Positions 33,224-56,499 of a stretch of DNA of 64,000 bases are shown piece by piece. The stretch lies in NCBI GenBank assembly GCA_021323705.1, contig JAJPKL010000023.1, positions 1-64,000 of the forward strand. Reading direction: 5' to 3'. The DNA comes from Nitrososphaerota archaeon (lineage in GTDB: Archaea > Thermoproteota > Nitrososphaeria > Nitrososphaerales > Nitrosopumilaceae). The notes below the pieces were generated by a model, which was given only the letters and a program-made list of their open reading frames with translations, was not told where the DNA came from and ran no database searches. Numbering within the stretch: position 1 is the first letter of the stretch; each line of letters starts with the position of its first letter. The translations under genes and the position numbers were made by a program.

Positions 33224-33826
33224 ATGTTTGAAAAATTCCGAAAGAAAAAGGATGAATTTAAGCCAGATTCTACTAAAAAAGATGGGGAGGATTTTTCGAC
33301 GCAGTACCAGCCACAGGAGGAGCTGGAACCTGAAAAAACAGCCGAAGTCATAGAGCAGTCACGCCCAGAACCTCCCAAAGTTATTGAGCAACAACCTCCA
33401 GAACAAGTAAAAATACCGGAGCCTATGCAGCAAAGGACAATGAGTACAGAAGACATAGGTATTAGAGCCCTCATGGACAAGCGAACCAAGCTTGAAGAGG
33501 CAATTGACTACGTAGGATTAATGATTAAGAATTTGAAGGACAAAAGAACGAATTTAGAGAAAAACATAGAGGATGAATCTGTCGATATTAAGAATTTGAA
33601 AGAAAAATTGGTTAAGGTTGGGCAGTATATTGACGAAGAAAAGCAGGGAATAAAGGCCTTGCAACAAAAGAGAAGCGAGGTAGAAAGGGAAGCAGATGAT
33701 GTTGCCACTATTATCAACAGCCTTCGTGAAAAGATATTAGGTATTGATAGAATAGTAAACGAGGAAGGCAGCAAGATAGAGAAATTCAAGGACTCTAGAC
33801 CAAAGTCAGAGTCCTCTTTCAGCTAA
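33224..33826 (+). CDS. Coiled-coil protein
   Basis: This 200-residue protein has a Pro/Glu/Gln-rich disordered N-terminal third and a long heptad-rich coiled coil from about residue 80 to 195, with repeated spacing of Ile, Leu and Val among charged residues. A TTTATATA box lies about 30 bases before the ATG. There is no catalytic motif. It could be a structural or scaffold protein. It overlaps the convergent next gene by 4 bases. Confidence 0.7.
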   Translation: MFEKFRKKKDEFKPDSTKKDGEDFSTQYQPQEELEPEKTAEVIEQSRPEPPKVIEQQPPEQVKIPEPMQQRTMSTEDIGIRALMDKRTKLEEAIDYVGLMIKNLKDKRTNLEKNIEDESVDIKNLKEKLVKVGQYIDEEKQGIKALQQKRSEVEREADDVATIINSLREKILGIDRIVNEEGSKIEKFKDSRPKSESSFS

Positions 33827-34200
33827 AAGGTAAATCCTTCTTTTAGCATATTGCCCAAATTGTCTTTTATCTCCTCTTCTGAGGATAGCGAGTCTAGATC
33901 TCTGATGAGTACCTCAGTTGCAAGACACTGGTTTTTTGAAAACTGGTAATAACAATCCAGTTTTTCCTGATAGGTTTTTGCATTATAGTACGTAGACCAA
34001 AAGTTTTCGGTAGAATGCTGCACATATAGTAGAAATTTTTGAATCACAGTCTCAATTTTGGGAGATGGATTATCTTTCATCAAACCAATTAGAATTTGTT
34101 CCAATTTACTATCCAAGTTGGACTCGTAAATTAATTGGTAAATGTCTACATTTTTTGTCACAGTTTCTTTATGCGACTGTATCATAAAAGCTTTCATCAA
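33823..34200 (-). CDS. Hypothetical helical protein
   Basis: This 125-residue soluble, mostly helical protein shows no recognisable motif; it has several Tyr, Gln and Cys residues (DCYYQFSKNQCL). ATG codons at residues 1, 2 and 6 make the start uncertain by a few residues. It lies at the end of a region of small lineage-specific genes. I see no evidence for function. Confidence 0.6.
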   Translation of the reverse strand: MMKAFMIQSHKETVTKNVDIYQLIYESNLDSKLEQILIGLMKDNPSPKIETVIQKFLLYVQHSTENFWSTYYNAKTYQEKLDCYYQFSKNQCLATEVLIRDLDSLSSEEEIKDNLGNMLKEGFTF

Positions 34201-34286: not shown

Positions 34287-34294
34287 CTTAAATA
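34287..34294 (+). promoter_or_regulatory. TATA-like box of the structured RNA
   Basis: CTTAAATA is centred about 25 bases before the point where the paired RNA region begins (about 34315), the spacing expected for an archaeal promoter. Confidence 0.5.
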
Positions 34295-34314
34295 ATTTGC
34301 ATGTGTATATATTG

Positions 34315-34503
34315 TCCCTGCAAAGGAATATCCTCCCAAGACAGGCATCATGCAGCAAACGTGTGATACGGTAAGGCAAACCCTACCGTAAAAGAACCCA
34401 GCGGAGAAATCCGAAGGGAATGACGACAATGGTCGTCTGTCTTTGAATGCTTGCATTCTCACGCAGTGTGTAAATCACACACAACTGCATGATAGAGTTT
34501 TTT
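34315..34503 (+). ncRNA. Structured non-coding RNA, class unknown, about 190 nt
   Basis: This intergenic stretch folds densely on the plus strand. A 7-bp stem joins 34367-34373 to 34384-34390. A 4-bp stem with a GAAA tetraloop covers 34402-34413. A 6-bp stem (GACGAC/GTCGTC) covers 34422-34437, and a 5-bp stem covers 34445-34458. A terminal hairpin at 34463-34488 is followed by six T. A TATA-like box sits upstream, so it looks like an independent transcript. Fragments recall RNase P (AGGAA..UCC, GCAGCAAAC) and the TPP element (GAACC...AAGGGAA), but the core motifs of both are missing. It could also be a leader of the MFS gene 83 bases downstream. Confidence 0.6.
34463..34503 (+). terminator. 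Hairpin plus T run
   Basis: GCAGT/ACTGC encloses GTGTG/CACAC, and after a short gap comes TTTTTT (34498-34503). It is placed to end the structured RNA before the MFS gene. Confidence 0.5.
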
Positions 34504-34585: not shown

Positions 34586-35854
34586 GTGCAACCAGTACAA
34601 TCACAAAAGTGGATGTGGTACATTCTTCCAGGCCAGATTTCTGTACAAGGTCTGAATATTGTAATTCCTTTGTATGTAATATCTCTTGGTGGCGACATAG
34701 GAGAAGTTGCAATAATCACTGCTCTTCAGAATGCTTCCATTGCCACAGGTTCTATTTTTTGGGGCAAGATAATCGATAGATTTCACGCCAGACGGTTTAT
34801 ACTTCTCATATCATTCTTTGTTGTTCTGCTTAGCAGTGTTGGCATGTATCTGACTACGTCGATTACCGCACTTTATGTCATTTCGCCCATACTTGGATTT
34901 TTTCTAGTTGGCAGAAATCCTGTAACTCAATTGCTTGTGATGGAATCTGTGCAGAAGAATCTTTGGAGTTGGCTTTTTGCAAGAACATCAATAATTAGTA
35001 CTCTTGGAATGTTAGCTGCGATGATAATTGGAACCGTTGATAGTCTCTATCTTGATCTAAGGCCATATTTTTTGATCTGTGCGGCATCAAGCGGAATAGC
35101 GATGGTTCTTAGCACAAGTGTTAAGGGTGCAGGATTCCATCTTGAGCGAAGTAGCGTGGCCCATTCCATACATGGCTTGCGCTACATAATGAGTCACTAT
35201 CATTTTGTCTTTCCAAAAATTCCCGAACTATATGATTTCAAGCACATAATTACAATATTTAAGGGAAAGATAAGCAATGAGATTGGAATTTTCTATATTG
35301 CAATATTCTGTTTCAATCTTGGGAGCAACATGTATTCAACAGGTTGGAGTCCTTTTCTTGTAAGCCGCCATTTTTCAAATTCTGGAATTTTCCTAAACTA
35401 CATGATTCAGATGGCTACTATGCTGCTTATCTTTTTTGTAGCTCCTAAAATAATTTCCAAGGTGGGGGAAGAACGATCTACGTTAATGGCATTCATGCCT
35501 AGAATTTTAGCTGTAGTAATTCCTGCTGTAACAATTCCAATAATGATAGGGAGTGTAGGTACATTGTTGGCCATCATTTCATCCTGTCTTTTAGTTATTG
35601 GGTTTTCTATTTTTAGTACATCAAGCTCAGTCATCTTTTTCAAAAGCATACCACAGGGTTTTGAGGGAAAGTATCTTGGAGTCAACAGTGCTGTGACCGG
35701 AATTGGCGTTTTTATGGGGGCTCTTATTACTGGAAATCTTACAAAGGCGTTTGGTTACTCTGCGCTGTTTTTCTCTTCTGCCACAATACTAGTTGTTTCC
35801 TTGATTTTATTTGGAATGTATTTCCGCTACAGACTATCGCACAAGATAGCCTAG
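34586..35854 (+). CDS. Major facilitator superfamily transporter
   Basis: This 422-residue protein starts at GTG 34586 and has about twelve membrane helices. The loop after helix 2 reads GKIIDRFHARRF, the MFS signature, and the two halves are linked by a longer loop near residues 190-230. The substrate is not evident. If the RNA upstream acts as a leader, its ligand could hint at the cargo, but this is unproven. It converges with cdvB, overlapping by 4 bases. Confidence 0.85.
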   Translation: MQPVQSQKWMWYILPGQISVQGLNIVIPLYVISLGGDIGEVAIITALQNASIATGSIFWGKIIDRFHARRFILLISFFVVLLSSVGMYLTTSITALYVISPILGFFLVGRNPVTQLLVMESVQKNLWSWLFARTSIISTLGMLAAMIIGTVDSLYLDLRPYFLICAASSGIAMVLSTSVKGAGFHLERSSVAHSIHGLRYIMSHYHFVFPKIPELYDFKHIITIFKGKISNEIGIFYIAIFCFNLGSNMYSTGWSPFLVSRHFSNSGIFLNYMIQMATMLLIFFVAPKIISKVGEERSTLMAFMPRILAVVIPAVTIPIMIGSVGTLLAIISSCLLVIGFSIFSTSSSVIFFKSIPQGFEGKYLGVNSAVTGIGVFMGALITGNLTKAFGYSALFFSSATILVVSLILFGMYFRYRLSHKIA

Positions 35855-36489: not shown

Positions 36490-37165
36490 GTGTACGACTA
36501 AAAAAATCTGTTATTAATTTCAGGTGTAAAATGTGGTTCACAGTATGCTAAATTTAGCTAACAAATTGCTTGCTTGAGATAGCCACTGCTGGATTCTTGC
36601 TAAAAAATCAAAATTTTCGGATAATCTAGCTGGATATATCCTAGATTCAATCCCCACTACAAAGATTTACTGCATTACTGGTATTGCAATATTTCTTTGT
36701 GGATGGATTTTCTTTATGTGAATTGCAAGCGCACTGCTTGACGGTTGCGATTCACAGCAAAGTGGACATTTTTCCATTTTATTTATTGCCTGTCATCCAG
36801 AACTAACGTATTTAAGGTTTTGGTTGAAGTGTTTTAACAACAAAAAGTTATCAAATTTTAAAAAATGTTTTTTCTGTTTTTGAAAAATAATTCTTATCTA
36901 CTCATTCATTTTTTAGAAATGATTTCATCTCATCTCTTTTCAAAACACAAAACTGTTTTCAAGTTACATTACAAAAAATTTGTTGCACCGATTTACGGAA
37001 TTGCCTTTCTCCATGAATCAACTAACACTGATCTAATTATTTCAATTATTATATGATAAAAAACAAAAAATTAGAAGTTATTCAATATATATTTTAAATT
37101 TTAATAATTTCACTTATAGTTAAACCTTTTTATCTATGTTAACCGAAATTCTTATAAGATATTAT
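36490..37165. other. AT-rich intergenic region
   Basis: Apart from the small zinc-finger gene at 36667-36777 and the TFB promoter near 37126, I see nothing clear in these 676 bases. A 63-codon plus-strand reading frame at 36865 has low-complexity, AT-driven composition and was not accepted. Confidence 0.6.
36667..36777 (-). CDS. 36-residue C2H2 zinc-finger protein
   Basis: This minus-strand ORF of 36 codons starts at ATG 36777. It holds Cys4-x2-Cys7-x12-His20-x4-His25, the exact spacing of a classical C2H2 finger, with IKKIHP after the helix as in other archaeal one-finger proteins. A TTAAAT box lies about 40 bases upstream on the same strand. Small single-finger proteins are common in Thaumarchaeota and are thought to bind DNA or RNA. 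It is too short for most gene callers, so it may be unannotated. Confidence 0.65.
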   Translation of the reverse strand: MEKCPLCCESQPSSSALAIHIKKIHPQRNIAIPVMQ

Positions 37166-38080: not shown

Positions 38081-38203
38081 ATTTTTTTAAAATTAGTTTC
38101 TAATTTTACTACTGTCAAATGAGTAATCAAAAACAATCAAACAAAAAATTTTTCAATATCAATGATTCCAGAATTATTTCATCATAGTTATAGAATGAAA
38201 AAG

Positions 38204-38288
38204 GGCGTGGCCCCAATCGCAGACATTCAGAGATTACCTCTTAAGAGCCGCCCACAGCGGTCACATATATGGTCTGCGAAGCCACGCC
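38204..38288. ncRNA. Candidate cloverleaf-like RNA in a convergent gap
   Basis: GGCGTGGC (38204-38211) pairs exactly with GCCACGCC (38281-38288). After a small internal loop, TCGCAGAC (38217-38224) pairs with GTCTGCGA (38272-38279). Inside are two hairpins, AGAG/CTCT (38229-38241) and CCGC/GCGG (38248-38260). The 85-base element is GC-rich inside AT-rich DNA and lies between convergent tfb and response-regulator genes, so it cannot be a leader of either. It lacks tRNA T-loop and anticodon features. The rest of this 414-base gap is AT-rich and featureless. Strand unknown. Confidence 0.6.
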
Positions 38289-38494
38289 TACCGAGCAGTA
38301 GATTTTACATCTTTCTGCATCAGTTAATATATAAGATCAAAGTATTTAGGATTTATTATATAATTTTTGATATTTTTAACACAATTTATTAAATTTTTTA
38401 AAATAAAGGTTGTTTAAACTATAATTAGAAAGTATAACATTTACAATATTTACACAGATTGAAAATACATGGGTCTGACTGTCCTTTCTTGATT

Positions 38495-47950: not shown

Positions 47951-48093
47951 TACAAATTATTCAAAGAATTGGATAATGTTTTCATTGAATTGTTGTTGTG
48001 AAATAAAGAATTATTGAAAAAATAGAAATTATTTGTGATAATTATGATATATTGTTAAATATCATGAAAACATACAATAATCAATGATAAAAT

Positions 48094-48204
48094 ACGCAAA
48101 TTCTGGTGACTGAATTTGCGTGGCTCTGCGAAAAAGAGTACATGGTAGAACGCACAAAGGTGCGTGAGTGGCAAGAGAATGCTTTTGCCTATACAGAGCC
48201 ACGC
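48094..48204. ncRNA. Candidate structured RNA with alternative stems in a convergent gap
   Basis: GCGTGGCTCTG (48118-48128) pairs exactly with CAGAGCCACGC (48194-48204). Inside are ACGCAC/GTGCGT and GGCAA/TTGCC hairpins. Just upstream, ACGCAAATTC (48094-48103) pairs exactly with GAATTTGCGT (48112-48121), sharing GCGT with the large stem, so the two folds exclude each other. It lies between the convergent sirtuin and UPF0201 genes and is GC-rich in AT-rich DNA. A T-rich run (CCTTTTCTT) follows on the plus strand. The outer ends (GCGTGGC/GCCACGCC) match those of the RNA at 38204. The remaining parts of this 322-base gap show nothing else. Strand unknown. Confidence 0.6.
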
Positions 48205-56421: not shown

Positions 56422-56499
56422 TGGTGGGACCGGCCGGACTTGAACCGGCGACCTCTAGCACCCCAGGCTAGCATCATAACCAAGCTAGACTACGGTCCC
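56422..56499 (-). tRNA. tRNA-Pro (anticodon GGG), CCA encoded
   Basis: On the minus strand GGGACCG (56499-56493) pairs with CGGTCCC (56432-56426). The anticodon arm CTAGC-CTGGGGT-GCTAG gives anticodon GGG at 56464-56462, read as proline. The T arm has GCCGG/CCGGC with TTCAAGT. The discriminator base A is followed by genomic CCA (56424-56422). No intron is seen. All arms fit a standard cloverleaf. Confidence 0.93.

Follow-up and report, generated by a model that had tools for sequence, protein, structure and literature searches.

A predicted structured RNA gene of a new, clade-restricted family in Nitrosotalea and four related archaeal genera

Introduction

To our knowledge, few non-coding RNAs apart from the universal ones have been catalogued in ammonia-oxidizing archaea. 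A segment at positions 34315-34503 of a 64,000-nucleotide (nt) stretch of genomic DNA from this group (the window) had been predicted, from its letters alone, to encode an RNA of unknown class that is independent and densely folded. Does this segment encode a free-standing RNA, and if so, is the RNA new or a strongly divergent form of one already known?

The existence of an RNA gene at this location, composed of approximately 184 nt plus a run of thymidine (T) residues, is well supported. Comparison of its homologues shows selection for a folded product, whose gene has a predicted promoter signal of its own, and this predicted gene represents a new, clade-restricted and previously uncatalogued archaeal RNA family. 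We consider it likely that the locus is a free-standing gene of a new family, whose folded transcript acts in trans and probably together with a protein, and this conserved RNA of about 190 bases very probably has a real function. Our literature search returned no paper on this RNA, nor on any small RNA from Nitrosotalea.

Results and discussion

A segment with exceptional folding stability

The 189-nt segment has a predicted minimum free energy of -65.7 kcal/mol, compared with -41.8 +/- 4.1 kcal/mol for dinucleotide shuffles (z -5.81), and none of 200 such shuffles folds as well. When 577 scan windows of the 64 kb, each 190 nt long and mostly on the forward strand, were compared with 30 shuffles apiece, the one that begins at 34296 ranked second.

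The same scan also gives low folding z-scores elsewhere, -4.3 for positions 47976-48165 and -3.8 for positions 36576-36765, the latter of which lie in the gap between genes for a CdvB paralogue and TFB (190-nt windows, forward strand, 30 shuffles). Just downstream of the TFB gene, at 38202-38322 on the forward strand, is a second conserved structured intergenic element (GGGCGTGGCCCC..CGCAGAC..AGAGATTACCTCTT..GTCTGCGAAGCCACGCC..GCAGTAGATTTTACATCTTTCTGC; fold z -5.1), which has homologues at 13 Nitrosotalea loci with 71-81% identity, double changes at two pairs of its consensus fold, and no Rfam family.

Homologues are confined to five genera

A blastn search yielded matches in 33 of 101 genomes, namely the source genome, 29 genomes of the same genus (from 36 other species searched) and three from other genera. 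A covariance model (R1) extended this set to 43 genomes, each carrying a single copy, out of 250 searched in the family, in Nitrosotalea (g1; 33 of 37 genomes) and four related genera (five genomes of g6, three of g21, one of g8 and one of g9). The model matches positions 34315-34502 with an E-value of about 1e-58, the segment's own sequence being included in the model. Among named genomes, an exact pattern search gave Candidatus Nitrosotalea and related Thaumarchaeota, which identifies the genus as Nitrosotalea.

Wider searches did not enlarge this range. A model rebuilt to include the homologues found by R1 (R2), when run with laxer filters on 39 genomes, gave no additional convincing member, and a class-level search of 400 genomes found the RNA only in the same five genera. 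In other Nitrosopumilaceae, a relaxed model and a two-block pattern gave only weak or coding-like matches (GGTGACAAAGGT-type repeats), and viral contigs have no match to a conserved 24-base pattern of the RNA. The suggestion that this might be a new thaumarchaeal RNA is supported as to novelty, but too broad as to distribution: homologues with compensatory changes do exist, and they are limited to Nitrosotalea and its four relatives. Within Nitrosotalea, the RNA was undetected in one genome that is 96% complete (G014), where the CdvB paralogue (region of G014:C9:163801-164427, L188) is present without an adjoining RNA, MFS gene or 125-aa gene (described below). The RNA may be dispensable, or it may fall in an assembly gap.

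Compensatory changes define a nine-helix architecture

The consensus secondary structure comprises nine helices. A 5' hairpin (P1, with tip P1b) is followed by a domain that is closed by P2 and P3 and that carries the hairpins P4 to P7 and P8. The elements, all on the forward strand, are as follows.

34315-34503, forward strand: RNA gene (fold z -5.8, homologues, covariation, covariance-model match)
34317-34345, forward strand: P1/P1b 5' hairpin, CCUG(UC) AAA GGA..UCC CAA (GA)CAGG
34347-34355, forward strand: 5' strand of closing helix P2, AUCAUGCAG, which pairs with 34485-34493
34361-34366, forward strand: 5' strand of P3, whose partner is 34459-34464
34367-34390, forward strand: P4 hairpin, with double changes in 8 of 9 pairs and 11 double-change events
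34397-34418, forward strand: P5 hairpin, with a GAAA tetraloop at 34406-34409 in the source species; the most variable element
34422-34437, forward strand: P6 hairpin, GACGAC-AAUG-GUCGUC, six perfect pairs
34445-34458, forward strand: P7 hairpin, GAAUG-CUUG-CAUUC, with a conserved CUUU just before it
34466-34482, forward strand: P8 hairpin of the GUGUGU-AAAUC-ACACAC type, 85% of cells paired
34485-34493, forward strand: 3' strand of P2, CUGCAUGAU

Five local stems, including one with a GAAA tetraloop and one with six perfect pairs, had been recognized by the original prediction, and all are present as P4 to P8. They do follow one another, although short linkers separate them where a gapless succession had been described. 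The P1 hairpin and the long-range closing helices P2 and P3 had been missed. Six T residues do end the segment, but they follow the 3' strand of P2 rather than a terminal hairpin as had been proposed; P8 ends approximately 15 nt before them.

Covariation data strongly support this model. Among 29 homologues, 90.3% of alignment cells are paired and both sides have changed at 27 of 57 pairs, and none of 500 shuffles attains any of the measures. With 33 more diverse homologues, pairing is 88.6% and both-side changes occur at 33 of 57 pairs, a level again attained by none of 500 shuffles, whereas sliding the partners by one to three columns lowers pairing to 31-44%. Because related sequences can mislead such counts, we also placed the changes on an independent tree built from the neighbouring 125-aa protein. 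Parsimony on this tree requires 32 double-change events for the structure, compared with one to four for control sets of slid or randomly re-paired columns. Most of these events map to P4, P3, P6 and P1.

The helices differ in how they are conserved. P2 is paired in 98% of cells and is nearly invariant in sequence, with double changes in three of nine pairs. P1 (94% paired, double changes in four of six pairs), P1b (97% paired), P3 (88% paired, double changes in five of six pairs and five events on the tree) and P6 (94% paired, five double-change events) are likewise well maintained, and the sequence GACAA(A/U)GGU in P6 is almost invariant. Conservation of P5 and P7 is only partial: P5 is paired in 66-80% of cells and is replaced by longer stems in g6, g8 and g21, while P7 is paired in 73% of cells, has double changes in five of six pairs, and is deleted in some species. 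Conserved letters reside chiefly in P2, P6 and the P1 hairpin.

The P1 loop (UCAAAG) and the CUUUGA that precedes P7 might form a pseudoknot; 87% of cells pair, but covariation at these positions is no higher than in shuffles. A single suggestive compensation (UCAUAGG/CUAUGA) is found at locus L029.

Predicted signals for independent transcription

Candidate signals for the initiation and termination of transcription frame the folded region.

34288-34294, forward strand: TATA box of sequence TTAAATA at about -25, some 21-27 nt before the first conserved base of the RNA
34304-34312, forward strand: conserved proximal promoter element rich in A and T, similar to CGTATTAAT (TGTATATAT in the window), which adjoins the presumed start
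34498-34503, forward strand: T-run of six residues, the presumed termination site

The TATA-like box had been placed 25 bases upstream, in agreement with its position here. TTAAATA is present in all 33 aligned homologues at a nearly constant spacing, including a relocated copy in g9, and the proximal element, which may be the region that is initially melted, takes the form CGTAT(T/A)A(A)T in the majority of them. Likewise, four or more T residues follow the RNA in every one of the 33. Retention of both a promoter and a 3' end signal across homologues is the pattern of an independently transcribed ncRNA gene.

The RNA carries no conserved open reading frame (ORF), as had been predicted. Pairwise comparison with the window gives 244 insertions or deletions, of which 232 have lengths not divisible by three and would break any reading frame, and we therefore regard the RNA as non-coding. 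This finding also bears on whether the segment might be the messenger of a small protein that folds by chance, or an element that functions as DNA, such as an inverted repeat or the remnant of a mobile element. Small ORFs do occur on both strands, but they arise by chance, and P2 indeed forms a near-invariant inverted repeat that bounds the domain. However, the single copy per genome, the many internal compensatory changes and the fixed promoter and T-run argue against these possibilities, to which we assign a negligible probability.

The RNA is maintained independently of its neighbours

Genes adjoining the RNA were evaluated as possible partners or targets.

33823-34200, reverse strand: divergent neighbouring gene, whose 125-aa product belongs to no family in Pfam or NCBIfam
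34586-35854, forward strand: MFS transporter gene (MFS_1 match), downstream of the RNA

In g1, g6, g8 and g21, the RNA lies between the divergent 125-aa gene, which is syntenic with it in these genera, and the MFS gene, and these are followed by the CdvB paralogue and, where the contig extends far enough, by TFB. The 125-aa protein is conserved in Nitrosotalea and has homologues (30-42% identity) in several further genera of this family, where the gene has a different context and no RNA motif alongside. It is also missing from g9, which has the RNA. The gene and the RNA each occur alone, and the 125-aa gene was rejected as an obligatory partner.

The MFS gene begins about 82 nt beyond the RNA in the window, and this proximity raises the question of whether the RNA is a cis-acting leader, such as an orphan riboswitch or attenuator, in which a ligand-sensing domain refolds to prevent the T-run from stopping transcription of the transporter gene. 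A same-strand MFS gene follows the RNA in most g1, g6, g8 and g21 genomes, and such leaders typically combine a compact conserved fold with a T-run behind it, usually ahead of a transporter gene. However, constant linkage to a regulated gene, as expected of a leader, breaks down in several genomes. In G017, G018, G021 and G034 the MFS gene was absent by search, with at most short remnants left (loci L003, L004, L006 and L096, where decay of MFS beside a conserved RNA can be observed), and yet the RNA of all four matches the model, and the TATA box and T-run are intact in the aligned members of this group. These four species form one clade in the tree of the 125-aa protein, which suggests that the MFS gene was probably lost once and that the RNA outlived it, apparently persisting through several subsequent speciations.

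A further exception is the g9 genome (G044), in which the RNA has moved to a different contig. There, rtcA precedes it by about 300 nt, and it faces convergent genes on the opposite strand, with no same-strand gene behind it in the region read. The old neighbourhood, on contig C1 of this genome, retains CdvB and a 200-aa gene but lacks the RNA, the MFS gene and the 125-aa gene. Given also that a T-run closes the RNA in every homologue, a role as an MFS leader appears quite improbable, and the MFS gene was rejected as a required partner. The relocated RNA thus has an RNA-processing neighbour, because rtcA codes for RNA 3'-terminal phosphate cyclase (G044, L078:2-610 and L078:911-1103 for the pair), although this proximity is probably coincidence.

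The RNA matches no known class

At the gathering score, no Rfam family matches this RNA. At relaxed thresholds, one weak match appears on the opposite strand in flanking sequence, and the RNA itself is unmatched, as are six homologue loci. Likewise, ARAGORN reports only a tRNA-Pro (56422-56499) in the 64-kb window, and no tRNA or tmRNA at the RNA locus. Parts of the segment had been said to recall RNase P RNA and the TPP riboswitch, and its size class is similar to those of known archaeal RNAs, but a check against the archaeal RNase P, SRP and TPP models gave no match.

RNase P RNA is normally encoded by one gene per genome. The source genome has its own copy (G000:C9:64085-64361, 157 bits) and its own SRP RNA (G000:C44:40897-41209, 120.7 bits), both above the gathering score, and the new RNA is therefore neither a divergent nor a missing copy of either. 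It resembles archaeal RNase P RNA (RF00373) in having multiple helices closed by long-range pairing, but fails that model at both gathering and relaxed thresholds. Like archaeal SRP RNA (RF01857), it is a stand-alone structured RNA, but it is approximately 120 nt shorter and does not match the SRP model.

Signatures of other classes are also missing from the alignment. TPP riboswitches are marked by a CUGAGA core and a thiamine gene downstream. No conserved CUGAGA exists here, consistent with what had been noted from the single sequence, and the downstream gene is MFS or none. Box C/D guides have conserved RUGAUGA and CUGA boxes and a kink-turn; in some homologues AUGAUGA does occur, but as the covarying 5' strand of P6 (AUGACGA, ACGAUGA or UUGUUGA elsewhere in the alignment), and there is no conserved CUGA. 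H/ACA guides consist of a hairpin with a pocket and then an ACA box near the 3' end, whereas in all homologues the P2 strand is followed by a short linker and then by the closing T-run, with no such box at that position. Taken together, these observations bring the proposal of a strongly divergent known RNA close to refutation. What stands is an independent, densely folded RNA without a known class, as judged from its compensatory changes, its promoter and T-run, its independence from neighbours and its lack of an Rfam family.

The closest parallel that we found in the literature, by description only, is Tan1 (Candidatus Thalassoarchaea ncRNA 1) from marine group II Euryarchaeota. It is described as a 229-nt RNA of unknown function that has a complex conserved secondary structure and is highly expressed in sea water (PMC5069720). 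On that description, both RNAs are archaeal, lineage-specific, similar in length and complex in their conserved folds, but they come from different archaeal lineages, and the likeness is one of description rather than sequence. Expression data exist for Tan1, whereas the present RNA is known from sequence alone; on the other hand, compared with Tan1 as so described, it has more homologues and its covariation has been tested.

A proposed mode of action in trans

How might such an RNA function? One possibility is that it regulates by base pairing with mRNAs or rRNA, for example by using the UCCUCC of the P1 loop as an anti-Shine-Dalgarno mimic, or by using its CAAAGG segments. Sequence conservation is high in the P1 loop (AAAGGA-n-AUCCUCCCAAGA), and its UCCUCC is similar to the 3' terminus of 16S rRNA in archaea. 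However, some homologues carry AACUCCU, UCUCCUU, AUAACC or AACUUCC in place of UCCUCC and retain pairing with the opposite strand, demonstrating that pairing rather than sequence is conserved. Similarly, the P1b variants, as read by eye, are GGA/UCC, GGAA/UUCC, AAGG/CCUU, AGGA/UCCU and GGU/ACC. The specific proposal of anti-Shine-Dalgarno mimicry was rejected on this basis. Moreover, conserved unpaired stretches of more than five bases are few, and without a long one the RNA seems less suited to an antisense role. We consider a base-pairing regulator unlikely, and these same features favour a folded, probably protein-bound RNA.

We therefore return to the free-standing RNA that acts in trans. 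RNA polymerase would start near position 34315 and stop within the T-run, and the resulting transcript of roughly 185 nt would fold and act as a folded object. Most likely it would be the RNA component of a complex with protein, in which a protein would recognize the nearly invariant helix P2 and the hairpin P6. A ligand-binding or catalytic role is also possible. More speculatively, and with considerable doubt on our part, the RNA could form the core of an archaeal ribonucleoprotein of a new kind, or could itself bind a ligand or act as a catalyst, in either case being specific to the Nitrosotalea lineage of ammonia oxidizers and without a functional counterpart in any known RNA class.

Concluding remarks

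The covariance model and alignment are sufficient to define a new Rfam family. Its predicted members have an architecture of their own, occur as a single copy per genome, and have been retained despite the loss of a neighbouring gene in one clade and relocation in another lineage. The organisms concerned are ammonia-oxidizing archaea of acid soils (Nitrosotalea), and because cultivated species exist, both the expression of this RNA and its partners are directly testable.
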